This document shows positions 3 through 15,170 of a stretch of DNA of 20,694 nt, piece by piece (position 1 is the stretch's first letter; each line of letters starts with the position of its first letter). The DNA comes from a virus, in the IMG/VR virus record IMGVR_UViG_3300022925_000228, positions 1 to 20,694 of that record. One strand, 5' to 3'. The position numbers were made by a program, and so were the translations under genes. The notes under the pieces are model-generated. The model saw only the letters and a program-made list of their open reading frames with translations. It was not told the DNA's origin and did not search any database.

Positions 3-3000
3 ATGGCCCTTAATTTAAATTCTTCACCTTATTACGATGATTTTGATCCTCAAAAGAATTACCATCGGGTACTTTTTAAGCCGGGGGTTGCTGTTCAAGC
101 TAGAGAATTGACTCAGCTTCAAACAGTTCTTTCCGATCAATTATCACAATTAGGTAGTTTTAATCTTAAAGAAGGTGCAGTCATTAGTGGCTGTGAGCAA
201 AAAATTGAAAACTTTAAGTTCGTTAAAATCCTCGATGAGGATGCTAATGAAGATCCTATTGCTAATGCCGATCTCGCTTCTTATGATGGTGCAATTCTAG
301 TCGGAGCAACTACTGGACTAAGGGCAAGAATTATTACACACAAGACTGGACAAATCACAGTCAGCGATTCAATTAATACAAAAGCATTATATATTGTTTA
401 CATAGATGAGAATGGCCAAAACGCAGACTTAACAACTAATCAATATCAAAGATTCCAACAAGGAGAAACATTAACAGTAGAGTCTGTAAACACGGAAATA
501 AAAGGACACACTTTTGTTACTCAAACTACTGAGGGGGGAACTTTTGGTAAGAGAGACTTTTATGCAGGCATAGCTCCTCATTTAACTATGTCTCCTGGCA
601 TAATTTATGCTCTTGGCAATTTTATTCGAACTAAAAATCTCTCTGTTTTTATTGATAGCTTTAGTCCTTATACAGATAAAAAGATAGGATTCTTAGTAAA
701 TCAATCTATCAAACAAGCGTCTGTTGATGGTACTCTATACGACAACGCTAGAGGAACTTTTAATGAGGGAGCTCCTGGTGCAGATAGATTGCAAAATACT
801 GTATCATTAATATCTTATAACAGAGATTCTTCACCAGCAGATAACTATTTCCAGATTGCAACATTCTCTAACGGAAAAATTACAAGAGCAGATATACAAA
901 CAGATCCTTTAGGCGGAATTAGAGAAATTCTGGCTAGAGAAACATTTGATAGACACGGTAATTATGTTTCAAAAGGATTGCAGGTTTATTTTACAGAGCA
1001 TTTGCGATCTTATCGTGGAAAAAACAACGGAAGATTTACGCCAAATGGTATAGGTGATGCTACTAAACTTATTCTAGGTGTTACTGCTGGCTCAGGAAAT
1101 GTTGCTGGATATCCTGTAGAGTATTTGAAAGAAACTGAATTTTCTTTTCCTAAACCAAGTGCTACTCAAATAGAAAATACTGTTTCTCAATCTACTTCGT
1201 TTGGTAACTATGTAATTGTCAATGATTTATGTGGCGCATGGGACACGGATGGCGCAGATACAAGTGCTAATGGTATTGTAAACCTACACAGCGTTGTATC
1301 TAATGGAGTTTCAGGCGGTGCGTATTCTAACACTTCTGTGCCAGGAAACATAGTAGGCACTGCAAAAATTAGATACATTGAATTATCGTCTGGTACACCT
1401 GGAACTGCAACCGCTGAATTCAAACTGTATTTGTTTGATATAAAAATGTTTGATGGAGAATTTGGTGCAGTAAGATCGATCTCTTATGAGAATGCCGAAG
1501 CAAACGCCTTTGCAGACATCGTACTCAACTCAGCAGGCGATGCACAAGTATATGAAAAGAATTCAAATAAATTTCTTTGGAATTTACCATATAAACATTT
1601 AAAAACTTTACAAGCCTCTACTGCTGGAGTTTTTGATTATAATTTTAAATTTATTAAAGAATATGATAAAATTGCACCTTCTGACGGTAATATAAATCTT
1701 GCAGCAGAAGGAGATCATACTTTCTTTTTTGGTAATGGCCCAGTATCGAATTCCGATGTCGCTAGTCATATTAAATTAGTAGCAAGAGAATCTTTTGAAC
1801 TAGACGGCACTGTGATTGAAAAAGGAGAATTTATTGATCTCACTGGTAAAGTAGTACAAGGCGAAATTAACTCTTTGACTATTAATTTAGGTAGTTTGAA
1901 CGATATAGGAGGAGCTCCTTTTGCGGTTAGAGTCTATGTCAATATGCAAGTTTCTAACGATGGTCCTATCACTAAGAGCCTAGAGAAAACAAAATATGTC
2001 AAAATAGAAGCAGATACAAATGAAAACTTTGCTAATAATAGATTCTGTCTCGGTGTGCCTGACGTATTCAGAGTAACAAGAATTACAGCCACATCAAACG
2101 CAGATTATACTACTGGTGCTAGAAATGTCTCAACCTTGTTTAATGTAGACTCTGGTCAAAGGGATAATTTTTATGGATTATCTTATATCGAAAAGAAAAC
2201 TAGCAGCGCAATAGACCTTACTGTTGAAAAATATCTTACAGTAGAATTTGATTACTTTGATAATGGCACAATTGACGGGCCAACTTTTGCTTGTATAGAT
2301 TCATATCCTGTCGATGATACTGGTTTAACTGGAATTAGAACAGAAGAAATTCCTATATATGTGTCTAAGTCATCTGGTAAAGTATTTGATTTAAGAAATG
2401 CTATTGATTTTAGACCTTTCATGGAGGCAACAGAAACGCCTGGCTCAACAGAGGCAACAGCTCCTGTCAATCCAAGTTCTTTTGAACAAATTAAACGTCC
2501 CCCCGGAGGACTTACTAATCCTATTCCTTCGGCTACATTTACAACAGATTTAGAATTTTATTTAGCTGAAGCATATAGAGTAGTTATTACTCCTTCTGGT
2601 AAAATAGATATAGTTAAAGGTGTTGCTTCGGTTTCACCTAAACTTCCTCCTCCTCCTGAAGGATCGATGACTCTAGCCACTGGAGTATTGCCACCGTATC
2701 CGTGTCTTTCGCAAAGAGCTGCAACAAATTATGGCCGAGAAGATTTGGCCATGACAATTGTTCCTGTAAAGAACAAAAAGTATACAATGAGGGATATAGG
2801 TGCTCTTGAACAAAGAATATCAAATCTGGAATACTATACTACACTTACTTTGTTAGAAAAGGAAGCAGGAAAAGTAGTCATCCCTGACTCTGACGGTATA
2901 GACAGATATAAAAACGGTTATCTTGTTGACTCTTTTTCGAACTTTAGTGTAGTTCAGGTTAATAATCCTGACAACACATCTTCTATTGATGTTAAGAAGA

Positions 3001-6000
3001 GGGAGCTTCGAGCGGCCTTTAAGACTTCTCAAATAGGATTCAAACCAATAGCAACTGGAACTACTGCTGGTCAGTCTGGTTATTTCTGGCATGTTCCTTA
3101 CAATGAAGCAATTTATACACAGCAAACTCAAGCTAGTTCTTATCGTAATGTGGTGGGAGAATTGTTTATAACTCCGCCTCCTGCTACAGAACAAGAAGCA
3201 GAAGAAACTGCTACAAATAATGGTGGTACAGGACAAGATCAGACAGAGACAGAACCTTCAACTAATGATACTGAAGCAAGTCAGAGAGGTACAACTCCAA
3301 CTTCTCCTAGTTATCATCTTATCAGATCAAAAACAACAGTTAATGAAGGTGACACATTTACTATAACATTAGAAACAACAAATGTTCCAGAAGGTACAGT
3401 TCTACGTTATACAGTCTTTGGTGTAACTAGCGATGATTATAGTACTGTTCCTACGACAGCAGCAGATGGAACAGGAACTCTTACTGTAGATTCAACTGGT
3501 TTTGCGTACTTAAGAGTTACTATCGCAGAAGATTTGACTACTGAAGGGACTGAAACATGGGGGATTACGCTGAGTGATATAGGAATAACAGCAAGCACTT
3601 CAGTGACAATCAATGACACTTCAGTTACACCTAGTGATAACAATAATAACAATAATAATAACAATAATAATAACAATAATAAAATCGCAACTGGTCCTTG
3701 GATAGGTAGCGCAGATGTACAGCCTCCTATTTCTAATTTCATAGATACTAATTACGAGGGAGAGCCTCTTCAAAATGACAATGGAGAATATGACCATTTA
3801 TTAAGAAGCAGCGGATTTAATAGTGAAGGATATTCATCTGGTTGGGAGTTGCAATGGGGTAACTGGGAATTTGCAACAGGTACGATTGGAGCTTTAGATC
3901 CAGGTGTAAACTTTGGAACTTCAGCAGATCCAGCCAATGCCATTGATCTCGGCGAAGACGGTTTATACATTCCAGAATACAATGCCACTTGGGTGAATCC
4001 AGAAGCTATAGATCCTAACTCAACTACTGTATGGGATTATCGGGAATATGATTATCTTTGGAATGGATCTAAAGAAGCACCTGTTTATGAAGACACGGCA
4101 GATCTTCGTGTTAAAACATTAGCAAGACAAGAAAATCTTCAGGTTCAATTTTGGGGGCTCAAGCCTGATACACCACACACCGTTTTTGTCAATGGTACAC
4201 CATATGGATCTAATGGAGGAGCTCCTCGAGTGAGTTTTGCGAGCGGAAGATTTACTGTAGGTGTACTCTTGAATCCTGGACAATGGCCCGCTAATGAATT
4301 GATTAGGATTGAAGCCGCAAATCATAATGATCCGTCTCAAGCAGATTCTCGTGCTGTTGGATATTTTTTACCTAATCACTCAGTAAGACGAGACGTAATA
4401 ACGAATTTGTCTACTAGATTTCCTAAACCGGCATACGATGTAGTATCACGACAAGTGAAAAGTAGTCGTCCCAGCTTAGAGAATGTAGTCGGAGTGAAAG
4501 GGCTTGACTTCGCAGGCTATAGACATGTTAAACTTACTAATGGTACAGAAGATCCTTGGGTATCAGTTAATCGTCTCGACGGTCAAGGCATGGTTCGTGC
4601 AAATAGGGTTCCAATTGAACAATTGGATCTTAATGATACTGTTCTCGGGGTTGAATGTGACCCTATATTCGGTGATAGTGGAGTATCTAGATCAGTTCTT
4701 CAAAGAGCCGATGGTACTAGATATGGAGTAGAAATAATAGATCCAGGGTGTGCTACATATAATGATTATATACAATCTCAGGCTACTCCTTCTATTCCTG
4801 AACAAGGGAAAGTTTATACTGAAATAGATTCAGTAAATACTGGTACAGTACAAGTTGAAACTTCACAAATACTTATTCTTGACGACTCTGGCACTGTAGA
4901 TACTGAAACAGGAACAGTTCAAACTATTGACGCATCTCGTTATACTCACGGAGATGCTGATGAGTCTACTGCTGATATTAACACAAGTGCGACTTCCAGT
5001 AGTTTGGGTGAAAGTAATATAAAACTAGACTCTTCTCTTACAAATAAAGATTTAGAAAAAACGGAAGTCATTAATGCTTCTAACGCTCTTTCTGTGTCTG
5101 GTGTAGATGATATAGATTCAGCTAAATTAGCTGAAATTGTTGCTGCGCTAGACTTTGATTTTTCAACACCAGAATTATGTATAGGCGAAACGCAAGATCC
5201 GTTAGCACAGTCTTTCTTTGTTGAGGGAATGGAAGGAGGAATGTTCATTACTTCTGCTGATATATTCTTCAGAAATAAATCAGCAGAGGAAAATAATAAC
5301 GGCATTACTCTACAGATCAGAGAAATGATAAACGGTGTACCAGGACCATATATTATAGCTGAATCTCATAAAACAAGATCAGAGTGTTTGGTATCTACTG
5401 AAGATGCTTCTGGTAATGTAACATTTAACTCTACTAACTTTAAATTTGATGGCCCTGTCCATCTTCAAAATAATACTGAATACTGTATGGTACTTAAGCC
5501 AGATGCAAATGATCGTGGCTATGAGGTTTGGTTAGGTAAACTAGGCGAGACTAGAAAAGGTTCAACTGAAGTTATAACAGAGCAAACACATTCAGGAATT
5601 CTATTTACATCTGCAAATAACAGAACTTGGTCTGCACATCAAGATGAAGATTTAATGTTTGTTGTAAGACGAGCTAAGTTTGAAGTTAATCAAGATTATA
5701 TTATAAACACAGTAAATAAAAATATTGATTGGATTAAATTCGATGCAGATGAGTGGGATCGAACTCCTAATGCAGCACTTGGATTTGACTCTGATAACAA
5801 TCCATTGACTCCTGCAAGTTATTTTCCCGCAGGCAATTTTGTACACGGATTTAAACTTACAATAACCAGCGCAGGCTCTTATGCTGAAGCCGAAGATGAT
5901 GCTACTTATGATTTAGTGTTTAATGATACTGGAACTAACGGCTCTAATGCTGCAGGAACATATACTGTTTCTGGTGGGGTAGTCACTGAAGTTACTTTGA

Positions 6001-7253
6001 CTAATCCAGGATCAGGATATACTTCAGCTCCTACAGTGAGCCTACCTTCTGGTAATCCAACAACTGCTGCAAATGTGTCAGTAACTCTCAATCGTGCAAA
6101 AGTTTCACGGTATGATAGAGGAGTTTCCAGTTATGAATTAGAAGTAAATAGTGGAAGTTTTGTAGTTGGTGATCTTGTTGGTAACGGGTTGACATCTACT
6201 AGGATTTCTGCTATCGAAGATAGAGACCTTAGTACCTATGTTGTTCAATATCACTCGATCAATCCTGACCAAATAGGAAAAATCACTCCAAAGATTGCAT
6301 TGACTACTTCTGGATCTGCTTCAGCAAACACTACACTGAGCGAGGCTGTTTTGCAAGCAACTGTAGAGCTTCCTGAACTCAAAACTGTGTACAGTTATTC
6401 AAATGAAATTGCTAGAGATGGAGAAAAGACTGCTAGAATACAATTTACTCTGAGAACTCCTTCTAACAATATCAGTCCAATTATAGATTTAGCGGCCATG
6501 GATATGTTAGCAGTAGCTAACAAAATAAACTATCCTAAAGATATTGACGGAAATTCTATAGTAGAAGAAGAAGTTCGCACTGGCGGCAATGCTCAATCTA
6601 AGTATATTACAAGAAAAGTTGTTCTTGCAGAAGGACAAGATGCAGAAGACTTGAAGATATTCTTAGATAATGCTATTCCTTCTAATGCAGCGGTTGAAGT
6701 TTATGCTAAACTACAAAATGCTGAAGACGATGGCGAATTTGCAAGTGATATCTATTGGAGAAAACTAGAAGTAGAAACATCTCCGTTTATTCCGACCAGT
6801 GGTTTCGCAGAATATTCTTATAAGATTCCAGAAAAATCTACTGGCACATGGGGCGTTGATAGTGCAACTGGTATTTTCGAATATGATGTTACTAGAGTTG
6901 CCTCTATTCCAGTAGTTTCGGGTGGAACATATACCTCTGCTCCGATTATTAAGATAACTGATAATGCTGGTGTTGGATATGGAGCTTCTGCTAAAGCAAT
7001 AATGAACGGTAATACAATCTCTGAGATTAGAATCACTAATCCTGGAAGATATTATTCTGCAGGCAATGTCAATGCAGAGATAGTATCAGGTACTGGTGGC
7101 GAAACAGTAGCAGGAACGCTAGGTACACCTACCACTTCAACTGTTACATATAAATCTTTCAAGCATTTTGCTATAAAGATAGTACATTTAAGTGACAATA
7201 GAGCAATTATTCCTAAGACTAAGACGCTTAGAGCATACGCACTACAGGTATAA
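3..7253 (+). CDS. Giant virion tail/baseplate protein (DUF4815-type)
   Basis: A 2416-residue structural protein, probably part of the baseplate or distal tail of a T4-like marine myovirus. Residues 1-60 have the family-like opening (SPYYDDFDP, then FKPGVAVQARELTQLQT). A family-type helical stretch follows at about 927-953 (YTMRDIGALEQRISNLEYYT), then DRYKNGYLVDSF near 970 and DPLAQSFF at 1732-1739. Between these lies what looks like an inserted module: a hydrophilic linker (1057-1103), a Calx-beta-like domain (about 1104-1205, VNEGDTF...EGTETWGI) and 14 consecutive Asn. The C-terminal part has two beta-type GxGYTSAPxV-like segments (about 2000-2012 and 2307-2320). The start ATG overlaps a TAA at 1-3, so an upstream gene probably ends there. 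The exact role (baseplate wedge, fibre base) is inferred from family context; assignment to a tail structural protein is fairly secure. Confidence 0.88.
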   Translation: MALNLNSSPYYDDFDPQKNYHRVLFKPGVAVQARELTQLQTVLSDQLSQLGSFNLKEGAVISGCEQKIENFKFVKILDEDANEDPIANADLASYDGAILVGATTGLRARIITHKTGQITVSDSINTKALYIVYIDENGQNADLTTNQYQRFQQGETLTVESVNTEIKGHTFVTQTTEGGTFGKRDFYAGIAPHLTMSPGIIYALGNFIRTKNLSVFIDSFSPYTDKKIGFLVNQSIKQASVDGTLYDNARGTFNEGAPGADRLQNTVSLISYNRDSSPADNYFQIATFSNGKITRADIQTDPLGGIREILARETFDRHGNYVSKGLQVYFTEHLRSYRGKNNGRFTPNGIGDATKLILGVTAGSGNVAGYPVEYLKETEFSFPKPSATQIENTVSQSTSFGNYVIVNDLCGAWDTDGADTSANGIVNLHSVVSNGVSGGAYSNTSVPGNIVGTAKIRYIELSSGTPGTATAEFKLYLFDIKMFDGEFGAVRSISYENAEANAFADIVLNSAGDAQVYEKNSNKFLWNLPYKHLKTLQASTAGVFDYNFKFIKEYDKIAPSDGNINLAAEGDHTFFFGNGPVSNSDVASHIKLVARESFELDGTVIEKGEFIDLTGKVVQGEINSLTINLGSLNDIGGAPFAVRVYVNMQVSNDGPITKSLEKTKYVKIEADTNENFANNRFCLGVPDVFRVTRITATSNADYTTGARNVSTLFNVDSGQRDNFYGLSYIEKKTSSAIDLTVEKYLTVEFDYFDNGTIDGPTFACIDSYPVDDTGLTGIRTEEIPIYVSKSSGKVFDLRNAIDFRPFMEATETPGSTEATAPVNPSSFEQIKRPPGGLTNPIPSATFTTDLEFYLAEAYRVVITPSGKIDIVKGVASVSPKLPPPPEGSMTLATGVLPPYPCLSQRAATNYGREDLAMTIVPVKNKKYTMRDIGALEQRISNLEYYTTLTLLEKEAGKVVIPDSDGIDRYKNGYLVDSFSNFSVVQVNNPDNTSSIDVKKRELRAAFKTSQIGFKPIATGTTAGQSGYFWHVPYNEAIYTQQTQASSYRNVVGELFITPPPATEQEAEETATNNGGTGQDQTETEPSTNDTEASQRGTTPTSPSYHLIRSKTTVNEGDTFTITLETTNVPEGTVLRYTVFGVTSDDYSTVPTTAADGTGTLTVDSTGFAYLRVTIAEDLTTEGTETWGITLSDIGITASTSVTINDTSVTPSDNNNNNNNNNNNNNNKIATGPWIGSADVQPPISNFIDTNYEGEPLQNDNGEYDHLLRSSGFNSEGYSSGWELQWGNWEFATGTIGALDPGVNFGTSADPANAIDLGEDGLYIPEYNATWVNPEAIDPNSTTVWDYREYDYLWNGSKEAPVYEDTADLRVKTLARQENLQVQFWGLKPDTPHTVFVNGTPYGSNGGAPRVSFASGRFTVGVLLNPGQWPANELIRIEAANHNDPSQADSRAVGYFLPNHSVRRDVITNLSTRFPKPAYDVVSRQVKSSRPSLENVVGVKGLDFAGYRHVKLTNGTEDPWVSVNRLDGQGMVRANRVPIEQLDLNDTVLGVECDPIFGDSGVSRSVLQRADGTRYGVEIIDPGCATYNDYIQSQATPSIPEQGKVYTEIDSVNTGTVQVETSQILILDDSGTVDTETGTVQTIDASRYTHGDADESTADINTSATSSSLGESNIKLDSSLTNKDLEKTEVINASNALSVSGVDDIDSAKLAEIVAALDFDFSTPELCIGETQDPLAQSFFVEGMEGGMFITSADIFFRNKSAEENNNGITLQIREMINGVPGPYIIAESHKTRSECLVSTEDASGNVTFNSTNFKFDGPVHLQNNTEYCMVLKPDANDRGYEVWLGKLGETRKGSTEVITEQTHSGILFTSANNRTWSAHQDEDLMFVVRRAKFEVNQDYIINTVNKNIDWIKFDADEWDRTPNAALGFDSDNNPLTPASYFPAGNFVHGFKLTITSAGSYAEAEDDATYDLVFNDTGTNGSNAAGTYTVSGGVVTEVTLTNPGSGYTSAPTVSLPSGNPTTAANVSVTLNRAKVSRYDRGVSSYELEVNSGSFVVGDLVGNGLTSTRISAIEDRDLSTYVVQYHSINPDQIGKITPKIALTTSGSASANTTLSEAVLQATVELPELKTVYSYSNEIARDGEKTARIQFTLRTPSNNISPIIDLAAMDMLAVANKINYPKDIDGNSIVEEEVRTGGNAQSKYITRKVVLAEGQDAEDLKIFLDNAIPSNAAVEVYAKLQNAEDDGEFASDIYWRKLEVETSPFIPTSGFAEYSYKIPEKSTGTWGVDSATGIFEYDVTRVASIPVVSGGTYTSAPIIKITDNAGVGYGASAKAIMNGNTISEIRITNPGRYYSAGNVNAEIVSGTGGETVAGTLGTPTTSTVTYKSFKHFAIKIVHLSDNRAIIPKTKTLRAYALQV
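3639..3680 (+). repeat. In-frame AAC/AAT microsatellite coding 14 Asn
   Basis: Fourteen consecutive Asn codons (residues 1213-1226 of the giant tail protein), made of AAC followed by two or three AAT, giving a 12-base period in the middle. It follows the Calx-beta-like domain and looks like a flexible linker. Slippage by whole units would keep the frame. Confidence 0.95.
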
Positions 7254-7998: not shown

Positions 7999-9366
7999 AT
8001 GAACCCAATACGAATTAAGGCATCAGCCACTCCAATTGGATCTGCAAACTTTCAAGGTTTGCAGGAAATGACAAATAACGAAATCAACCAATATCTTTCT
8101 GCGGTAATTACTCAGAAGTTTGCTGATGATACAGATGGAACTGGAACTGCGGAAATTAATGTTGATACTACAAATTCTCTTTCTGGTACTTCTATAGGAT
8201 CATGGACGAATCAAATAAGAAATGATGCAATTGGAACTCATCCAACTGACGGATCTACTGTAAATACCACGTATTATTTCAAGCAAGTAACTTCTTCGGC
8301 TACTGAAAATATTACTACTAGACCTGTTGGATATGATGCTGGCATTAAAGAATTTTCAGATGCTGGTATCGATACTGACATACTTGATAATGTAATTGAA
8401 GATATGGTAATTGGATCTGGTTATACTGTTGGACAGTATCACTTATCTGCATCGGCGCCTGCAGGCGGTACTTGGACTGCTAGATATACTATTACTGATA
8501 GCACACAAGGAGGAAATAATACAGTTTATTTGTGGCAAAAAACCGCTCCTTCTTTATCCGGCAATGCAGACTTAGCATCACTCAAACTTGATGGCACAAA
8601 CGTAAAGATGATGTCTGATGCAGAAATTGAACAACTTGTTCCTAATTTTAGAAACAGAATTATTTCTACTGGAATAGGTACGTATAAACTACAAACTTCA
8701 ATTCCTTCTAGCGCAGGAACTTGGGTTCAGGCGGGAGATGCTCTCGTTGATACCAGACAAGAAGTTGCGTCAGAAAATTATTCTGGAACATACACTGGAA
8801 ACTATACTGGAAACTATACTGGTAATTATAGTGGCAATTATAGTGGCACTTATTCTTCGTATTACACAGGTTCTTTTACTGGAAGTTATACTGGCTTTTA
8901 TACTGGACCAGATACTTTTGTTAGTTCTTCGTCATCGTCCTTCTCTGGAACATATTCAGGAACATATGCAGGCTCTGGTTCTTATGCAGGAGCTTATTCC
9001 AATACTTTCGTCAACTGGAACCCGGTATATTATAGCGGATATGTAGCTGGATATTATGCAGGATTCTACACGGGATATTTTACAGGATTCTACACAGGGA
9101 CAGCTAACTATACTGGTTACTATACTGGTTCATATGATAGAACATACATAGGTTATTACGAAGGAACATCACAGTACGCAGGAACTTATACTGGATATTA
9201 CTCACGCAGTTTTTCTAGTAGCTTTGTTGGATCATACACTGGAGCATACACTGGAACATATTCTGGAACATATTCTGGAGACTATGCTGGTACATATGCC
9301 GGAGATACTATTCAAGCAACTACTGAAAACACATCAACAGTAAGACTTTGGTTAAGAACTGCTTAA
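7999..9366 (+). CDS. Virion protein with Tyr-x-Gly repeat domain
   Basis: A 455-residue protein, probably a fibre or surface appendage. Residues 1-140 are a non-repetitive Thr/Asp-rich region. A module at 145-183 begins GQYHLSASAP, contains GTW and ends YLWQKTA. A second, similar module starts at 227 (GTYKLQTSIPSSAGTW), breaks off at about 260, and its end (TVRLWLRTA) appears only at the C-terminus. The gap (residues 261-436) is a tract of more than 30 [Y/F]-x-G units such as YTGN, YSGT and YAGD, almost free of Lys. So the repeat looks inserted in a loop of a duplicated domain. AGGA at 7987-7990 is 8 bases before the ATG. Similar Tyr-Gly tracts occur in marine phage proteins as far as I recall; no function is known to me. 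Confidence 0.82.
   Translation: MNPIRIKASATPIGSANFQGLQEMTNNEINQYLSAVITQKFADDTDGTGTAEINVDTTNSLSGTSIGSWTNQIRNDAIGTHPTDGSTVNTTYYFKQVTSSATENITTRPVGYDAGIKEFSDAGIDTDILDNVIEDMVIGSGYTVGQYHLSASAPAGGTWTARYTITDSTQGGNNTVYLWQKTAPSLSGNADLASLKLDGTNVKMMSDAEIEQLVPNFRNRIISTGIGTYKLQTSIPSSAGTWVQAGDALVDTRQEVASENYSGTYTGNYTGNYTGNYSGNYSGTYSSYYTGSFTGSYTGFYTGPDTFVSSSSSSFSGTYSGTYAGSGSYAGAYSNTFVNWNPVYYSGYVAGYYAGFYTGYFTGFYTGTANYTGYYTGSYDRTYIGYYEGTSQYAGTYTGYYSRSFSSSFVGSYTGAYTGTYSGTYSGDYAGTYAGDTIQATTENTSTVRLWLRTA
8779..9306 (+). repeat. 12-base-period coding repeat ([Y/F]-x-G-x units)
   Basis: Degenerate repeat with a four-residue period, typified by tat-act-gga-aac. It is most regular at the start (NYTGNYTGNYTG) and the end (YTGTYSGTYSGDYAG) and is interrupted by a Ser run near 8924-8940 and an NWNP segment near 9015. 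Codons vary between units, so the array is old and selected at protein level rather than freshly amplified. Confidence 0.92.
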
Positions 9367-9424: not shown

Positions 9425-9913
9425 ATGTCAAATCTAGAAGTTGCAGTAGACACCTCTGTACAACAAGTGTCTACATCTATTCGCAAAAAGAAATATAAAA
9501 ATCCTTACTGGTCAAATAAAGATAATCGTCATCTTATTGTTACTATAGAACATGAAGACGGAACTAATTCTATGGCTTCTATTATGGATCCTGATAACAC
9601 AAATAAGGACATGAAAGAAGTTTTAAATCAATTCACCGAAGAAGAGATTGATGCGAATACTAAAGAAGGCCTAGAACGCCGAAACCAGAACATAAAACTT
9701 GAAATGGAAAGAAGAGAATCTCAAGCAGCTCGGAATATGCAGGAAGCATTGTTTAACTGTAAACTTGAAGCATTTGAGGTTGAAGCTATCAAGAACTCAA
9801 AAAATACAGAACTGAAGCGTATGATTCGTAAGTCTAAGTCAATCATGGAAGTTCAAGCATACGCTACTATTTTGTTAATGAAGGAACTTGAGAATGGCAA
9901 AGAAGCAGACTAA
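9425..9913 (+). CDS. Unrecognised charged helical protein
   Basis: A 162-residue protein I cannot assign to a named family. The N-terminal third holds a short basic stretch (IRKKKYKNPYWSN), then a beta-like segment with EHEDGTNSMASI. From about residue 60 it is strongly charged and probably helical (EEEIDANTKEGLERRNQNIKLE...), with a final amphipathic helix. No membrane segment or signal peptide is seen. GGAG at 9414-9417 is 7 bases before the ATG, a good ribosome-binding site. Its last 20 bases overlap the following glycosyltransferase gene. The position just after a repeat-rich fibre gene would suit a fibre assembly factor or a virion component, but this is only positional. Confidence 0.75.
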   Translation: MSNLEVAVDTSVQQVSTSIRKKKYKNPYWSNKDNRHLIVTIEHEDGTNSMASIMDPDNTNKDMKEVLNQFTEEEIDANTKEGLERRNQNIKLEMERRESQAARNMQEALFNCKLEAFEVEAIKNSKNTELKRMIRKSKSIMEVQAYATILLMKELENGKEAD

Positions 9914-10598
9914 AGGATTTGTCATTGTTGCTTCTGTCAAAAAAGGTTTTTATCGTTACGCAAAAGTACTAGCAGAATCAGTACGAGATTTTTATCCAGA
10001 AGCTAACATAACATTTTTCACATACGAAGAATGGGTTGAGCCCGAAGATTATACACTGTTTGATAACATTATAACTGAAGGCATTCCTCGGCACATCCGT
10101 GCTAAACTTTGGGCGCTTAACAAAACTCCATACGACATTACTTGTTATCTAGACGCTGACATGATGTGTGAGCATGAAGATATTCAGAATGTGTGGGACG
10201 AATTGCCTGATGATATGGATATCGTATTCACTAAGAATCGTCCATACAATGCCAAACTAACTAAGTTAGCAGAAGGCGAAGAGATGACTTGTCATTGTGG
10301 GTTCTTTATATATAGAAAGAATGAAGCAACGATGAATCTTATGGGAGCATGGTACACTGAGTTTCTAGCACAGACGGAACCAGACTACGACATGCTGCAT
10401 TATCCACAAGATGCTAGAAAGTGGGACACATTTACTATGTGGAGACTTCTTACATATGGTGAAAAAGGTGTTAAGTGGGGATATATTAAAGAGCCAGATG
10501 CTCGTTGGAACTTTGTGAACGGATATCATTTTGAAGAACTTCAAGGAACTGATATTGTTTTGTATCATCACACAATTCCACCAAATAAGTTAGACTAG
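9894..10598 (+). CDS. GT-A-type glycosyltransferase
   Basis: A 234-residue probable nucleotide-sugar glycosyltransferase of GT8-like type, which would act in the host cytoplasm. Residues 8-14 form the first beta strand (GFVIVAS), followed by a helix (YAKVLAESVRDFYP). CYLDADMM at 84-91 carries the metal- and sugar-nucleotide-binding DxD (D87, D89). Later features are the acceptor-side segment CGFFIYRKN and a C-terminal YHHTIPPNK. A TTG six bases upstream is in frame, but ATG at 9894 is preferred: AAGGAA at 9881-9886 lies 7 bases before it. The gene overlaps its neighbour by 20 bases. It is unlike the four minus-strand glycosyltransferases below in its N-terminus and DAD motif, so it is a separate lineage. 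Donor and acceptor are unknown. Confidence 0.82.
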   Translation: MAKKQTKGFVIVASVKKGFYRYAKVLAESVRDFYPEANITFFTYEEWVEPEDYTLFDNIITEGIPRHIRAKLWALNKTPYDITCYLDADMMCEHEDIQNVWDELPDDMDIVFTKNRPYNAKLTKLAEGEEMTCHCGFFIYRKNEATMNLMGAWYTEFLAQTEPDYDMLHYPQDARKWDTFTMWRLLTYGEKGVKWGYIKEPDARWNFVNGYHFEELQGTDIVLYHHTIPPNKLD

Positions 10599-10609
10599 GA
10601 GTTTAGATA

Positions 10610-11266
10610 ATGAAATGGATTAATATTAATAATACTGAAATATCAGAAATTTTAAACTCTTATAGTGATTGGTTTTTTGAACAAGACTTAACAGAACTAG
10701 ACAAAATTGCTAACAACGAAGAAAGGCACCAAGGATACACGCTACCAAAAGCATGTGGTCTTGAGCATCTAGAAGAAATTGTCTCTAAAGATGGCAAGCA
10801 TATAGGATATCCTGAGAAAACAATTTCAGTAGACATTGCTTCTGAAGGGAGAGTGCCTCCAGAACACAAGAAAAAATGCAGAGACATGGCGACTACACTG
10901 TGTTCTTATCTAGGTGCTAGAAATCAAGCTGTCAATGTGTATTATCCAGCAACAGGTTTCATGGGATGGCATAACAACTGGAATGCATCGGGATACAATA
11001 TTCTTCTATCTTATTCAAAAGAAGGAAATGGATTCTTTCGTTACAGAGATCCTATAACACACGAAGTTGTGAATATGCAAGATAGACCAGGCTGGACATG
11101 CAAGGTAGGATATTTTGGTAAAGGCAGAGAGCCTGACAAAGTGTTTTATCACTGTGCAGGCTCACATGAACAAAGAATTTCTCTAGGCTTTGTCATACCA
11201 CATTTAGAAATGTGGCGTGACATGATTGAAGACATTTCAGGCGAAGACGCTACTTCTTACCAATAG
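10610..11266 (+). CDS. Fe(II)/2-oxoglutarate oxygenase-like protein
   Basis: A 218-residue protein with the layout of a 2-oxoglutarate/Fe(II)-dependent oxygenase fold. GWHNNWN at 119-125 supplies the first metal His (H121). FYHCAG gives the second His (H181), followed eight residues later by R189, where such enzymes bind the 2-oxoglutarate carboxylate. Between them, strands SGYNILLSYS and NGFFRYRD fit the double-stranded beta-helix. The usual acidic ligand of HxD/E is Asn here (H121-N122-N123), so activity is uncertain; I recall related marine phage proteins with a similar WHTN motif. AGGAG overlaps the previous stop (TAGGAG, 10596-10601), 8 bases from the ATG. Possible roles are hydroxylation of a protein, nucleotide or sugar. 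Its 3' end overlaps the convergent methyltransferase-like gene by 17 bases. Confidence 0.7.
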   Translation: MKWININNTEISEILNSYSDWFFEQDLTELDKIANNEERHQGYTLPKACGLEHLEEIVSKDGKHIGYPEKTISVDIASEGRVPPEHKKKCRDMATTLCSYLGARNQAVNVYYPATGFMGWHNNWNASGYNILLSYSKEGNGFFRYRDPITHEVVNMQDRPGWTCKVGYFGKGREPDKVFYHCAGSHEQRISLGFVIPHLEMWRDMIEDISGEDATSYQ

Positions 11267-11933
11267 CCATAAATCGATCAAAGAAAACTTTACCTTCCCA
11301 GTTATAATAAAACTGCTCTATTTGTCCTGTGTAGAGTGGTTTTGTTATGCCTGTGTTTTCTAGATGCTCATCTATGTTAGACACACAGTTGATGCCATAC
11401 ATTTCCTGAATTACGTTACTAGACTGTAGAGCAAACATACAATCAGGATTCTTTGTTGTTAGTTCTTTGAGAGGATACATCTGTTCACAACCTAAAGAAA
11501 TAACAATATCAGTATCAAGCGCATTGATATCATGAAACGCAAATGGAATATCTAAACAGAGATGATTGATATCCATTCCTTGATCTGTGTAATACTTGTT
11601 AAAAACTTTAGACAATTCTAGTGCTTCGTTATCAATATCAATCAAATCCATGTGCTTTACTTTGATATTCTCACAGATTAGAGGTACAAGAGGAAAGCCC
11701 AGCCAAGAATTTAATACAATAATATTATATGCTTTCTGTTCAGATGGAGGAATCCCATCATTTTCAGCTTGTATTATTTTTACTAGATTTTCCATCATCC
11801 AAACAGCAGCATCCATAGTGTTTGGGTTCATAGACTTTCTAAAGTCATCATGTTTGTGAGGCATTTCGTGCTCAATCTTGTCAAGCGCCATGCCCCAATA
11901 TCTGAAACTAGTCAGAAAATTCAATTTTAACAT
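11250..11933 (-). CDS. Class I SAM methyltransferase-like protein
   Basis: A 227-residue protein, probably a Rossmann-fold SAM-dependent methyltransferase. After a helical N-terminus (1-65) come strand 1 with a loop in place of the GxGxG motif (YNIIVLNSWLGFP, 69-81), strand 2 ending in acidic residues (HMDLIDID, 94-101), LCLDIPF (125-131), strand 4 (TDIVISLGCEQM, 141-152) and a C-terminal strand FFDRFMAIGKK. The glycine loop is degenerate, so the call is moderate. ATG at 11933 is preferred over an upstream in-frame ATG (11990) because GGAGAG lies 8 bases before it and the first residues match the fold. It is last in the minus-strand operon and overlaps the previous gene by 26 bases. The substrate is unknown; a sugar or protein is suggested by the neighbouring glycosyltransferases. 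Confidence 0.58.
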   Translation of the reverse strand: MLKLNFLTSFRYWGMALDKIEHEMPHKHDDFRKSMNPNTMDAAVWMMENLVKIIQAENDGIPPSEQKAYNIIVLNSWLGFPLVPLICENIKVKHMDLIDIDNEALELSKVFNKYYTDQGMDINHLCLDIPFAFHDINALDTDIVISLGCEQMYPLKELTTKNPDCMFALQSSNVIQEMYGINCVSNIDEHLENTGITKPLYTGQIEQFYYNWEGKVFFDRFMAIGKK

Positions 11934-12612
11934 CTTGTGGTCTCTCCATCGAATCGTATAAACATATAAAAGGTGTCTCTCTGTATTCAAATTCTTTCAC
12001 ATCATTTGGGTATTGATACCCGTAGTTATAACTGTATACCCAACCACTAGGAAAGTGTCCTATATGATCGTGACTAAACTTGTTATAAAATAAATTATCT
12101 AGTCCTCTAAAATAGAAAAACATTTGACTAGGATAGTCTCTAATCATCTTATTGAATCTTTTCATTTCTTCTGATTCAATTAGACTATCGTTCCATCTTA
12201 ACACACTAGAATTTAAATCAGTATACTTGTGTGGTACATGCTCAGTATCTTTTTTCATTTTTTCTAGATTGTGCCACTCAGTCTTTACAAATAATAATTT
12301 GTTCTTGCACGGATGCTGTATAAAGTAGTCTATGTTTCTCTGAAGACCTATATCTAAATCCAAAAATAACTTTTCGCCTTTTTGTGTGACAACATTACTA
12401 TCAAACAAATAAAGTTTGTTCCACCACTTTTCATAGTAGTTATCTTCTGGCAAAGCTATGACATTGATAGTTTTGAAAAGTCCATCACTATCTTCAGTGA
12501 GGCAATAAAATTCAAAATCTTCTTCAACATTTTCTAAACAATGTTTGTATATCTCATTCACATGAGATGAAGAGTACTTTGTTCCCCATTTAACTGTATA
12601 GATGTGTATCAT
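11908..12612 (-). CDS. Glycosyltransferase-like protein, paralogue 4 of 4
   Basis: A 234-residue GT-A-type putative glycosyltransferase, fourth in transcription order of four tandem paralogues. Shared signatures: KWGTKY at 8-13 with V18-N19, a strand FYCLTEDSDGL, the DxD motif in LFLDLDIGLQ (D85, D87), LNSSVLRW, GLDN, and FPSGWVYSYNYG near the C-terminus. The ATG at 12612 overlaps the TGA of the preceding gene (ATGA), so translation is probably coupled; a TTG six bases upstream is less likely and no clear Shine-Dalgarno is seen. The middle part (WHNLEKMKKDTEHVPHKY) differs from the other copies, so acceptor or donor preference has probably diverged. The substrate is unknown. Confidence 0.78.
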   Translation of the reverse strand: MIHIYTVKWGTKYSSSHVNEIYKHCLENVEEDFEFYCLTEDSDGLFKTINVIALPEDNYYEKWWNKLYLFDSNVVTQKGEKLFLDLDIGLQRNIDYFIQHPCKNKLLFVKTEWHNLEKMKKDTEHVPHKYTDLNSSVLRWNDSLIESEEMKRFNKMIRDYPSQMFFYFRGLDNLFYNKFSHDHIGHFPSGWVYSYNYGYQYPNDVKEFEYRETPFICLYDSMERPQDVKIEFSD

Positions 12613-13427
12613 TGCCAATGCGCTAATAAGTCAGGATCTGCTAAGTCATCTTGTTTAGTGCTGCCACGACTTTTATCTTCAAATGGCAGCAAGTCAATGT
12701 TGAATACACAAAGAATAGCACCTGGGCGATAAGTATCTACTCTCAGATCATCTTCGTCCCAAGATCGGCCACGATTGTATGAGTATGCCATCCAACTTGG
12801 GAAATGTCCCCATAGCTTTTCTTTACTAAAATCACCCCATCGCCAACTGTGATAGTTGTCAGTACCGTCAGTGAATGTGAACCATATTTGTTCTTGATGC
12901 TTTAACACATCTTTCCAAATAACTTCACATTGATCGTCACTCCATACTTGACAGCTACCGTTAGTATAAGCACCATGAGCAAGTTTAAACTGTCGGGTGT
13001 TCATTGGTCGAGGGTCTTGCCACCAACTGCGAAGTTTAGTAGGACGATCTAAGTCGTATGTAATGATAGGCCCCATATCATTCTGGATAATAACATCCAG
13101 ATCCAAAAAGACGAAACGACCAGTAGGTTTATCTTCAGCAAAATTATGTGTGTTGAAGACAAATGTTTTAGGGCGATCCCAGCACCTAGCCATACCGTAT
13201 TTAAAATTATCACTACCAAACCAATACTTAGGGTGAATGCTGTCAATGTCAGGGAAGTCAATTACTTTAATCTCCTCGTCTAGACCTTCAGGATGCTCAG
13301 TATAGCAATAGAAGTGAAAGTCAAACTTTTCAGGATCAGTATGACGCTTTGCCATATTCTTTAGTTTGTTCACAAAGTGAGGACCATACTTAGTTCCCCA
13401 TTTGCAGCAGATGTAGTTTACTCGCAT
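12609..13427 (-). CDS. Glycosyltransferase-like protein, paralogue 3 of 4
   Basis: A 272-residue GT-A-type putative glycosyltransferase. KWGTKY lies at 9-14 with V19-N20, the DxD in VFLDLDVIIQND (D109, D111), then WWQDP, GTDNYHSWRWGDF, FPSWMAYSYNRG and LCVFNIDLLP near the end. It is closest to the next gene upstream (WQDP, DQC, SDNYHYWRRRDF), so these two are the most recent duplicates. It is the longest of the four, with an inserted segment around 65-80. Two in-frame ATGs are possible: 13433, with GAGG only 2 bases away, or 13427, with GAGG 8 bases away. I chose 13427, which also aligns best with the paralogues. It overlaps the upstream gene by about 10 bases and the downstream gene by 4. 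Confidence 0.78.
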   Translation of the reverse strand: MRVNYICCKWGTKYGPHFVNKLKNMAKRHTDPEKFDFHFYCYTEHPEGLDEEIKVIDFPDIDSIHPKYWFGSDNFKYGMARCWDRPKTFVFNTHNFAEDKPTGRFVFLDLDVIIQNDMGPIITYDLDRPTKLRSWWQDPRPMNTRQFKLAHGAYTNGSCQVWSDDQCEVIWKDVLKHQEQIWFTFTDGTDNYHSWRWGDFSKEKLWGHFPSWMAYSYNRGRSWDEDDLRVDTYRPGAILCVFNIDLLPFEDKSRGSTKQDDLADPDLLAHWQ

Positions 13428-14176
13428 TTCCATAACCTCAATAAATCTTTATCTTTCAAGTCTTCAAGTTTTATCTGTGTTTTAGCTCTAGGATCAGGCG
13501 TTAGGTCTGTATTGAATACGCACAATTTAGCATCGGGTCTGTATTTAAATAGCTCTAAATCATCTGGATAACTCATGCCTCTATTGTATGAGTATACCCA
13601 ATCAAAAGGAATGTTTGACCAGAAATCTCTGCGTCTCCAATAGTGATAGTTATCAGAACCTTTATAGAATGTCTTGAAAACCATTTCATCTTCAAACAAG
13701 ACTTCATGGTATATTCTCGCACACTGATCTTCTTTCCAAAGCATCATACTTGAGTTATAGAAAGTCCCTCTCATATCAATAAACAGTCTTTCGTGTTTCT
13801 GTTTAGGATCTTGCCATGTTGAATATACTATTCTTGGCTTTTCTGCAAGACCATCAATTTCGTCTATGTTGTTTTGAATGATAACATCTAAATCAAAATA
13901 ACACCACTTGCCTTCATATCCTAACCATTTGTGTGAATTGAATACAATAAACTTTGCACGATCCCAACAATATCCTTCTTTGCCAAACCAATGATCTGGA
14001 TGTAGAACACCGTCATCAGGAATAGGATGCGTGTCACATTCTAGGCCTTCAGTGTCGTCCGTGTAGCAAGTAAATGTAAAAGGCTTCGTATAGTTCTTCT
14101 CAACCATACGAAAGAGATTATTTACATAATCAGGAGTGTATTTGTCACCCCATTTTATGCATACAAAGTTCATCAT
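13418..14176 (-). CDS. Glycosyltransferase-like protein, paralogue 2 of 4
   Basis: A 252-residue GT-A-type putative glycosyltransferase. Motifs in order: KWGDKY (8-13) with V18-N19, FTCYTDDTEGL, WDRAKFIVFN, the DxD in CYFDLDVIIQNNID (D95, D97), STWQDPKQ, FYNSSMMLW, GSDNYHYWRRRDF, WVYSYNRG, LCVFNTDLTP. These match the downstream neighbour almost step for step. Two ATG codons in a row (14176, 14173) follow a weak GAGAAAG; a TTG at 14188 is in frame but less likely. The gene overlaps the end of the upstream gene by 32 bases in another frame. Metal-dependent sugar transfer is inferred from the DxD; the sugar and acceptor cannot be read from the sequence. Confidence 0.78.
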   Translation of the reverse strand: MMNFVCIKWGDKYTPDYVNNLFRMVEKNYTKPFTFTCYTDDTEGLECDTHPIPDDGVLHPDHWFGKEGYCWDRAKFIVFNSHKWLGYEGKWCYFDLDVIIQNNIDEIDGLAEKPRIVYSTWQDPKQKHERLFIDMRGTFYNSSMMLWKEDQCARIYHEVLFEDEMVFKTFYKGSDNYHYWRRRDFWSNIPFDWVYSYNRGMSYPDDLELFKYRPDAKLCVFNTDLTPDPRAKTQIKLEDLKDKDLLRLWKCE

Positions 14177-14792
14177 ATTCTTTCTCAATGTCGGGAAAGT
14201 CTGCTTGCCCGTTTAATAATGCTATCGTATATTCAGGCTTGTAAGTTCCGCCTGAGAATTTGTAAGAGTAAATCTCGTTTTCTGGGAAATGCTCGAAAGT
14301 AAAGTTTTCATGGTACAAGAATCTATCGTCACCTGCGTATTTAACCATGTAATAATCTTTGTTTTCTTCCCAATACTTATATATATGCGTTGCGTCTTCC
14401 CACAACATTACACTAGAATTGAAGTTACTTAGGTAATTAAACGACCACCTAGCGTCTTTATGATAAGGAAAGTTTTTATCTTTCCAATAAGTATAACAAA
14501 CGATAGGAGTATTGTCAAGCATATCAAACAAATGATCTACATCATGCTGTATTCTAACATCTAGGTCTAGATATAGAATCTTTCCAAAGGTATTTAATTT
14601 AAATAATTTTACCTTTTCCCAGTGTCCTTCTATCTCTTCATCAATAGGAATTGTATAAATATCAGGATGAAGACCTTCTATGTCATCTGTAACGCAGACG
14701 TAGTTATATTTGTTATTGGTAGCCTCAACAATACGATTAACGTCATTCGCCGTATACTTGTCACCGTACTTTAATGTTAAAATTGTCTTCAT
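14145..14792 (-). CDS. Glycosyltransferase-like protein, paralogue 1 of 4
   Basis: A 215-residue GT-A-type putative glycosyltransferase and the first gene of the minus-strand operon. It has KYGDKY (8-13) with V18-N19, YVCVTDDIEGL, WEKVKLFKLN, the DxD in LYLDLDVRIQHD (D76, D78), FNSSVMLWED, then AGDDRF where the paralogues have GxDN, and a reduced FPENEIYSYKFSG. It is the most compact of the four and lacks the WQDP segment of the middle pair. ATG at 14792 is chosen because KTILTLKYGDKY matches the paralogue N-termini. An in-frame ATG at 14858 would add an unrelated hydrophobic leader running through the divergent spacer and into the opposite gene. No strong Shine-Dalgarno is visible. Confidence 0.77.
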   Translation of the reverse strand: MKTILTLKYGDKYTANDVNRIVEATNNKYNYVCVTDDIEGLHPDIYTIPIDEEIEGHWEKVKLFKLNTFGKILYLDLDVRIQHDVDHLFDMLDNTPIVCYTYWKDKNFPYHKDARWSFNYLSNFNSSVMLWEDATHIYKYWEENKDYYMVKYAGDDRFLYHENFTFEHFPENEIYSYKFSGGTYKPEYTIALLNGQADFPDIEKEYDELCMHKMG

Positions 14793-14809
14793 AGTAAGAT
14801 TTATTTTCT

Positions 14810-14817
14810 TATAAATA
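14810..14817 (+). promoter_or_regulatory. T4-type late promoter box (TATAAATA)
   Basis: An exact TATAAATA octamer in the 51-base spacer between the minus-strand glycosyltransferase operon and the plus-strand fibre cassette, 26 bases before the ATG at 14844. T4-type late transcription starts a few bases after the box, giving a leader of roughly 20 bases with the ribosome-binding site AGGA at 14833-14836. The intergenic position and spacing make this the best promoter in the window. Confidence 0.65.
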
Positions 14818-14843
14818 AAAGAGTGAACACATAGGATAATCAA

Positions 14844-15170
14844 ATGGCTGGAATACAAAATTTAGTTATAGATCAGGGAACTACGTTTGATCTTACTATT
14901 AATGTAACCTTAGACGATGGGTCACCGACCGATCTCACTGATTATACTATTTCTTCTCAGATTCGTAAAAGTTATTATACTAGTACTTATACAGCCTTTA
15001 CAACAAGTAAAGTAGACTTGACCGGCGAAATTACGCTTTCTTTAACACCTACGCAAACATCTGCGTTGAAAGCAGGTAGATATGTTTATGATGTTGAGAT
15101 GGCTTCACCTGATGAAACTGTAAGAGTAATGGAAGGCATAATAACTGTAACCCCAGAGGTAACACGATAA
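14844..15170 (+). CDS. Small Ig-like virion structural protein
   Basis: A 108-residue all-beta protein of a type common in marine myophage tail regions. It reads as one compact sandwich: DQGTTFDLTINVTLDDGSPTDL, then YTISSQIRKSYY, a GEITLSLTPTQTSALKAGRYVYDVEM strand pair and a closing strand GIITVTPEVTR. The pattern is like BppU or Ig-type baseplate and fibre-support domains, so a structural role at the tail tip is likely. It is the first gene after the late promoter; AGGA lies 7 bases before the ATG. Its TAA shares its last A with the next ATG (TAATG). No catalytic motif is present. Confidence 0.75.
   Translation: MAGIQNLVIDQGTTFDLTINVTLDDGSPTDLTDYTISSQIRKSYYTSTYTAFTTSKVDLTGEITLSLTPTQTSALKAGRYVYDVEMASPDETVRVMEGIITVTPEVTR

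Follow-up and report, generated by a model that had tools for sequence, protein, structure and literature searches.

The seven genes at positions 9894–14792 of the window (the whole 20,694-nucleotide stretch analysed, IMG/VR record IMGVR_UViG_3300022925_000228) probably belong to a fibre-modification system. According to this reading, to which we give a rough probability of 0.6 from sequence comparisons and gene linkage, a glycosyltransferase (GT1) and a predicted 2-oxoglutarate (2OG) oxygenase (OG) would modify the Tyr-Gly (YG) repeat fibre S4, and four more glycosyltransferases (GT2–GT5) and a methyltransferase (MT) would elaborate the glycan. The core formed by S4, a small protein S5, GT1 and OG is the strongest part of this reading, the role proposed for GT2–5/MT being weaker.

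The genes occupy the host-recognition region, from VrlC to gp13/14, of a T4-like marine phage. Upstream they are bordered by S1 (3..7253, + strand), a large VrlC-like baseplate/fibre protein following gp8 (27–29% identity to VrlC of phage Mosig, blastp E 6e-46; also PHROG 358), and downstream by T1 (14844..15170, +), an L-shaped tail-fibre-assembly-like protein (PHROG 1084, 1.5e-29; PHROG 3304, 2e-19). A 125-kb relative has the order gp25-gp6-gp8-S1, which in this and a 46-kb relative extends as gp25-gp6-gp8-S1(VrlC)...T7-gp13-gp14. A nucleotide search of the seven-gene island against annotated phages gave no match. A cyanophage origin is unsupported, as psbA is absent from 11 relatives and gp23 is nearest to the capsids of methylophages and pelagiphages (70%).

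The YG fibre and its linked enzymes

The proposed substrate, S4 (7999..9366, +), combines a conserved N-terminal domain with Tyr-x-Gly-x repeats, tetrads of the form Y/F-[TSA]-G-x, and its repeat region (8779–9297) holds 40 Tyr in 173 residues. Tyrosine is the favoured candidate for the modified residue; it cannot be the sole purpose of the repeat, since Phe makes up 44% of the repeat aromatics in a second lineage, that of phage C48C1. Glycosylation of Asn at sequons is not favoured despite five N-x-S/T in the window's repeats, because position 4 of the tetrad is variable.

The linkage between fibre and enzymes was assessed in both directions. When DNA was scanned for the pattern (Tyr-Thr-Gly-x)3 without regard to the enzymes, 50 distinct YG-dense genes followed by 2 kb or more of sequence were obtained; right behind them stood S5 in 50/50, GT1 in 49/50 and OG in 49/50 cases. 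In the two exceptions the gene is rearranged rather than missing (OG is inverted in L385, and GT1 lies behind a second YG gene in L458). Starting from the enzymes, a YG/S4-type fibre precedes GT1 in 140/140 loci, OG follows it in 142/144 and S5 adjoins it in 138/140. The core is kept at 30–38% identity in the C48C1 lineage without GT2–5/MT (S5 shares 38% identity with CDS0202 of C48C1, where T1 is directly 3′ of OG), and 80 more contigs carry it in this reduced form. Among the annotated phages S4 and GT1 both match one record only, C48C1, whereas gp23 matches 2,511. A literature search on phage C48C1, and on tyrosine/hydroxylase fibre modification in phages, found no paper.

An earlier note on this DNA had drawn attention to the Tyr-, Thr-, Ser- and Asn-rich fibres on both sides of the enzymes and proposed to examine whether the island tracks their Tyr-Gly or TGDV repeats. 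The composition is as described, yet it is the Tyr-Gly fibre upstream, and not the other, that goes with the enzymes. A TGDV fibre was rejected as the partner in view of cyanophage S-RIM2, whose fibre has TGNV/TGDV-type repeats, no Tyr-Gly repeats and no adjoining glycosyltransferase or oxygenase gene. Virion fibre modification, also suggested in that note, is therefore favoured for GT1 and OG; the treatment of all seven genes as one island is not supported (see below).

Within the core, S5 (9425..9913, +) is a small conserved protein whose gene overlaps the start of GT1, and the two open frames overlap in 97% of cases. The T4-type late promoter octamer TATAAATA is absent at the S5-GT1 (0/155) and GT1-OG (0/150) junctions; a late octamer occurs at 29/150 YG-S5 junctions against a 2% background. 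This arrangement suggests that the co-directional S5-GT1-OG genes ride on the late transcript of the S4 fibre.

GT1 (9894..10598, +) is a glycosyltransferase of GT-A type and a candidate glycogenin/GT8-like enzyme, from a family separate from the genes GT2–GT5. Its matches to the Pfam families GT2 and GT8 are weak (E 0.002–0.014, the GT8 value of 0.014 lying below the cut-off). In a profile search of the PDB every match below E 0.08 was a glycogenin (best E 0.0099, itself weak), so that a kinship with glycogenin, a tyrosine glucosyltransferase, is indicated weakly. The DxD motif (D87, D89) and H225 are invariant in 17 sequences of 35–83% identity, and the only phage record matched is C48C1.

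Neither Pfam nor the PHROGs identified OG or MT, which is why structure models were used; sequence profiles against the PDB gave nothing usable for OG, MT, GT3 or GT5. The AlphaFold model of OG (10610..11266, +; pLDDT 87) matches the double-stranded beta-helix fold of the Fe(II)/2OG oxygenase superfamily, with Foldseek hits to PHD2, P4H and AlkB folds (2.6e-5, probability near 1, TM-scores only about 0.3) and to viral 2OG proteins, and we predict that it is an enzyme. The H121-x-N123 motif, the distal H181 and R189 are invariant in 18 divergent sequences. R189 has the 2OG-binding position after the distal His, and H181/R189 presumably correspond to H374/R383 of PHD2. The His-x-Asn...His arrangement replaces the canonical metal triad His-x-Asp/Glu...His, and without the carboxylate ligand activity is not assured; naturally carboxylate-free Fe(II)/2OG oxygenases do exist, e.g. 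AspH and the halogenases (PMC13168262).

The minus-strand unit

The earlier note had listed five GT-A-like genes, an oxygenase-like and a methyltransferase-like gene, and this inventory is borne out by PHROG 1962 matches, AlphaFold folds and a DxD motif invariant in each glycosyltransferase alignment. They do lie together in the fibre region, as it held, though not as a single run: GT1-OG, on the late fibre (+) strand, converges with GT5-GT4-GT3-GT2-MT on the minus strand. Moreover, no GT2–5/MT genes are found near OG at 45 of 97 distinct loci, which represent the large C48C1 lineage, and the seven genes are thus not one indivisible island.

The unit begins with GT5 (14145..14792, −; PHROG 1962, annotated 'glycosyltransferase', 8.7e-13) and continues with GT4 (13418..14188, −; its start probably a few codons downstream), its paralogue GT3 (12609..13433, −; hhalign 100%, E 2.5e-59), GT2 (11908..12618, −; PHROG 1962, 1.4e-7) and MT (11250..11933, −). 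All are accessory to the core, and GT2–GT5 form one paralogous family of GT-A type (97.9–100% probability by profile comparison). MT most likely starts near 11933, at an invariant Met that falls within the terminal part of GT2, as the alternative at 11990 is only a TTG; its model (pLDDT 82) has the class I SAM methyltransferase fold, Foldseek retrieving BioC and O-methyltransferases (best 3e-8).

Where GT4 is present, in 58 contigs, the island order is identical as far as each contig extends, and in comparisons with close relatives most genes have a dN/dS of 0.02–0.1, a mark of purifying selection, with higher values for GT2 and, between its two allele types, for MT; together these observations argue that the arrangement is not due to chance. 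GT3 is the region's most conserved gene (mean pairwise identity 82% versus 51–53% for the flanking T2 and S2; dN/dS 0.02–0.05), and its matches in a scan of prokaryotic genomes were one distant homologue and two contigs of phages that had been misbinned in MAGs. GT2 and MT are exchanged jointly as two allele types (MT of at least 84% identity going with GT2 of at least 70%, and MT of at most 61% with GT2 of at most 59%); such a swap as a unit would give related phages different glycan ends. A search for a conserved late promoter of the GT5-MT unit was negative; the octamer TATAAATA that is invariant at this place (14810..14817, +; 26/26 distinct divergent intergenic regions have it) points towards T1.

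Readings other than fibre modification

The absence of GT2–5/MT from the C48C1 lineage and their opposite orientation make it a serious, if lesser, possibility that the fibre is the target of GT1 and OG only, with GT2–5/MT acting on the host surface or on another virion protein, the more so as C48C1, Mosig and P1 have relatives of GT5 that are not located beside fibre genes. On the other hand, 58/58 fetched GT4 loci hold the island between OG and T1 as far as the contigs reach, no GT2–5 set of the island type was seen apart from the YG module, and in L458 a YG-S5-OG set is directly followed, on its own strand, by a GT5-type gene.

A second alternative is that the glycosyltransferases and MT alter the host lipopolysaccharide (LPS) or another surface glycan, late or early, blocking superinfection or freeing progeny, with the fibre linkage merely positional. 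This is the published reading of glycosyltransferases in the pelagimyophage host recognition cluster (PMC7029224); GT8-type enzymes are frequent in LPS core synthesis, and the GT5-MT unit, on the minus strand and outside the fibre operon, might be expressed early. We find it unlikely as an account of the whole region, since it does not predict that GT1 and OG should invariably stand behind one particular repeat fibre or be carried on its late transcript, and the unit has no membrane protein, flippase, sugar-nucleotide or lipid-carrier gene, with no transmembrane helix in any of the seven proteins (maximal 19-residue hydropathy 1.52). For GT2–5/MT it remains the rival to glycan elaboration.

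Part of the linkage may be a matter of inherited gene order, as almost every locus is found in one and the same interval of T4-like phages, VrlC-gp13, and S4-S5-GT1-OG could be passed on vertically together. That the linkage reflects nothing else, the enzymes being old neighbours functionally unrelated to the fibre, is rather improbable: unlike the core, the slots around it (radical SAM/SPASM, methyltransferase, Fe-S, DNA-ligase-like and ThyX-like genes) are freely gained and lost, the VrlC-gp13 interval exists without the core in Mosig and S-RIM2, and the rearranged L385 and L458 retain the partnership.

DNA-base glucosylation, which the T4-like character of the phage and its glycosyltransferases might suggest and which the earlier note ranked lower, is highly improbable: no thymidylate-synthase/dCMP-hydroxymethylase family (PF00303) gene occurs in the 11 relatives (fragments, including the 125-kb contig), none of the seven genes matches a T4 alpha- or beta-glucosyltransferase in Pfam, the enzymes are linked to late fibre genes, and only one of >100 SAR11 genomes has a restriction-modification system (PMC7029224).

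Proposed mechanism and comparison with known systems

In the fibre-modification reading, S4, S5, GT1 and OG would constitute one late unit of transcription and inheritance. OG would oxidise either the sugar or a residue in the S4 repeats; GT1 would add the first sugar, in the cytoplasm and while assembly proceeds, with S5 perhaps acting as an adaptor or chaperone; GT5–GT2 may then lengthen the sugar and MT cap it with a methyl group. More tentatively, and again from gene content, one may picture a phage counterpart of the collagen modification known from animals and giant viruses, in which the His-x-Asn-His oxygenase hydroxylates (or halogenates) residues in thousands of marine-phage Tyr-Gly repeats, the glycogenin-like GT1 glycosylates these repeats on tyrosine, and the swappable GT2-methyltransferase pair sets a serotype-like sugar end.

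The glycosyltransferases of marine T4-like phages have so far been interpreted as acting against the host surface. If a fixed core instead modifies one repeat fibre, a common class of ocean-virus genes changes meaning, and host-range proteins would carry post-translational chemistry invisible in sequence alone. Such a core would also provide a clean substrate-enzyme set that lends itself to tests in E. coli. The oxygenase with its His-x-Asn motif would represent a new variant of the iron site, and the exchange of GT2-MT could be a phage analogue of a change in serotype.

The pelagimyophage cluster (PMC7029224) shares with this region the VrlC to gp14 location, tail fibres, several glycosyltransferases and T4-like marine phages. 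It was described as hypervariable and read as modifying the host O-chain; in the present region the core is constant and linked to a single repeat fibre, and the site is occupied by a conserved island of seven genes, the order being fixed in 58 and 80 contigs and GT3 more conserved than the flanking fibres. No genes of O-antigen modification by GtrABC-type serotype conversion (membrane flippase, membrane-bound bactoprenol glucosyltransferase, multi-pass glucosyltransferase) lie between S5 and T1. The family of P1 PmgQ and P7 HdmD (PHROG 1962), reached from GT5 by tblastn, is matched by GT5 and GT2 at only about 25–31% identity.

As in virus-encoded systems of structural-protein glycosylation, glycosyltransferase genes are linked here to the structural gene presumed to be modified, S4. 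Mycobacteriophage-encoded glycosyltransferases decorate virion proteins, mainly the capsid and with no paired oxygenase in the account cited (Freeman et al. 2023, cited in PMC11256854), as opposed to a repeat tail fibre. Chlorovirus PBCV-1, an algal virus, likewise has glycosyltransferases together with methyltransferases (A064R/A061L) capping a structural-protein glycan, the N-glycan of its major capsid protein (PMC9614988), although the enzymes are unrelated as far as tested. In Mimivirus, L230 unites the functions of a glycosyltransferase and a lysyl hydroxylase and acts on viral collagen repeats, and R707 is a glycogenin homologue (PMC9614988). Unlike L230, the predicted enzymes described here are separate, the repeats are Tyr-x-Gly-x rather than Gly-x-y, the oxygenase is of the His-x-Asn type and the host is bacterial. 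In both cases, a viral 2OG hydroxylase-type enzyme and a glycosyltransferase are paired with a Gly-rich repetitive structural protein, and an enzyme resembling glycogenin, here by a weak match, is encoded by the same virus.

Gene layout and enzyme identities

The window is a virus record of 20.7 kb. The open frames of two island genes, GT1 (9894-10598, +) and OG (10610-11266, +), lie tail to tail with GT5, GT4, GT3, GT2 and MT on the minus strand, and adjoining frames of the island overlap. Profile comparison places GT2-GT5 in a single family (GT5 and GT2 match the PHROG 1962 glycosyltransferase; P1 PmgQ and P7 HdmD were found with GT5 as query), with GT1 forming a family apart. GT1 is assigned as a glycosyltransferase from a DxD motif (kept, with a C-terminal His, in 17/17 GT1 sequences), from PHROG 1903 and from weak hits in Pfam and the PDB, none of them to a close relative of solved structure; PDB chains below E 0.08 with the GT1 profile were all glycogenins (best E 0.0099, a weak match).

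A Pfam search with OG and MT returned no match. The AlphaFold model of OG, from an alignment of relatives, resembles 2-oxoglutarate (2OG) oxygenases of the PHD2/P4H/AlkB type, at low TM-scores, and viral 2OG proteins; the corresponding MT model matches SAM methyltransferases. The canonical 2OG oxygenase motif is His-x-Asp/Glu...His, and His-x-Asn...His...Arg is kept in 18/18 OG sequences at ~30% identity. The carboxylate can be missing, as in AspH and 2OG halogenases (PMC13168262); a limited literature search found no description of a natural Asn at this position. A second OG-like protein (L062:8001-8675; 40130-40804 in phage C48C1; 32% identity, His-Thr-Asn motif) is encoded beside a DnaB-like helicase gene, distant from the fibres.

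Linkage of GT1 and OG to the Tyr-Gly repeat fibre

The earlier note asked whether its proposed glycan-modification island (9894-14792) tracks Tyr-Gly or TGDV repeats. For GT1 and OG, tracking of the Tyr-x-Gly-x (YG) repeat fibre S4 (7999-9366, +) is borne out in both directions. IMG/VR loci are fragments, and counts are on distinct sequences because several scans gave identical contigs. Starting from the enzyme, a YG/S4 gene lies upstream of GT1 in 140/140 sequences with at least 1.5 kb upstream, the small core protein S5 (9425-9913, +) beside GT1 in 138/140 and OG downstream in 142/144. An enzyme-blind search of IMG/VR DNA for three consecutive Tyr-Thr-Gly-x units sampled the opposite direction: among the matches listed, 14/115 newly fetched loci lacked a YG-dense frame, and 50 distinct YG-dense genes with at least 2 kb downstream had S5 in 50/50 and GT1 and OG in 49/50 each. 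Both exceptions keep the partner: L385 has OG inverted, and in L458 GT1 follows another YG gene.

One neighbourhood was recovered from three scan starts (GT1, S5, the S4 N-terminal domain). C48C1, of a second lineage devoid of GT2-5 and MT, keeps the gene order, with a giant fibre of Tyr-Gly repeats followed by homologues of S5 (38%), GT1 (37%), OG (30%) and the tail-fibre-assembly-like border gene T1 (37%), with no further gene within the run; at least 80 further IMG/VR loci related to its GT1 share this layout, also without GT2-5/MT. Searches of the annotated phage collection gave a single matching record for S4 and for GT1, C48C1 in both cases, and 2,511 for gp23 of a relative. The core (S4-S5-GT1-OG) was not found in the structural interval of pelagiphage Mosig or cyanophage S-RIM2. 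Tracking of TGDV repeats did not hold: S-RIM2 has a TGNV/TGDV-type fibre with neither YG repeats nor an adjoining enzyme.

Two points argue against the main alternative, that the linkage is inherited gene order: the partnership persists where loci are rearranged, and the core stays constant while the contents of adjoining slots vary freely (among them SPASM-type, methyltransferase and Fe-S genes).

Individual loci show further arrangements. L458:3099-10410 holds two YG fibres: GT1 comes after one of them, and S5, OG and a GT5-type gene come after the other, with T1-like or fibre genes close to each. In L013 the gene for a 440-aa protein that weakly matches AMP-binding enzymes (E 0.006) has been inserted between S4 and S5, in the reverse orientation (12765-14084). 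One contig from a Bifidobacterium breve MAG (L243, CALPIE020000128.1) and one from a Flavobacteriales MAG (L244, PCBP01000045.1) carry the phage island (YG, S5, GT1, OG, MT, GT2-5 or parts); both are most likely misbinned phage contigs.

Genomic setting, variation and expression

A 125-kb relative reads gp25, gp6, gp8, S1, S2, S3, S4, S5, GT1, OG, then MT to GT5 reversed, T1 to T7, gp13, gp14, gp15/gp3, gp17, gp18, gp20, gp21, gp23. Given this order and S1 being a VrlC homologue, the island falls within the pelagimyophage host recognition cluster interval, where glycosyltransferases have been described before and interpreted as modifying host O-chains (PMC7029224). The closest capsid proteins (70%) are from Methylophilales phages and pelagiphages. 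S1 contains a 14-Asn run (3639-3680).

Island order is the same in 58 GT4-bearing IMG/VR loci, as far as each reaches. GT3 is the most conserved (mean pairwise identity 82% vs 51-53% for T2 and S2). Comparison with close relatives gives dN/dS values of mostly 0.02-0.1; those for GT2 are higher, as are those for MT between its allele types. The two allele types of MT and GT2 change together, independently of GT1, OG and GT3, which argues that the two are exchanged as one unit. Distant relatives encode between GT3 and GT4 a 500-aa protein (L041:8758-10260; L156:15398-16885; L133:13773-15269; L296:16707-18215) whose C-terminus bears a SPASM-type Cys motif (Pfam E 0.003) and whose N-terminus is GT-like by eye.

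In 97% of cases the open frame of S5 runs into that of GT1. The T4-type late octamer TATAAATA was not found at S5-GT1 (0/155) or GT1-OG (0/150) junctions and occurs at 29/150 YG-S5 junctions vs a 2% background; GT1 and OG therefore appear to share the late transcript of the fibre. Before T1 the octamer occurs without exception (26/26), directed towards the structural genes. At 14793-14843 T1 has an AGGA, and the GT5 start shows no visible Shine-Dalgarno sequence; the divergent GT5/T1 gap of some relatives (e.g. L044, L052) contains TATTTATAAATA, the late octamer on both strands.

A candidate fibre-modifying system

Obligate two-way pairing with the fibre, late co-transcription and the soluble nature of the enzymes make modification of the YG repeat fibre by GT1 and OG the best explanation, with a probability of roughly 0.7. 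A weaker proposal, at about even odds, would have GT2-5 and MT lengthen and cap that same fibre glycan. The substrates, sugars and oxidised residue are all as we infer them. Glycogenin glucosylates a tyrosine, and the S4 repeat region is Tyr-rich (40 Tyr / 173 residues); a glycogenin-like GT1 linked to such a fibre would fit tyrosine as the target, which is suggestive rather than proof, since Phe makes up 44% of repeat aromatics in the C48C1 lineage. The nearest working models are two proteins of Mimivirus: L230, an enzyme that both hydroxylates and glucosylates the collagen of the virus, and R707, a glycogenin homologue (PMC9614988).
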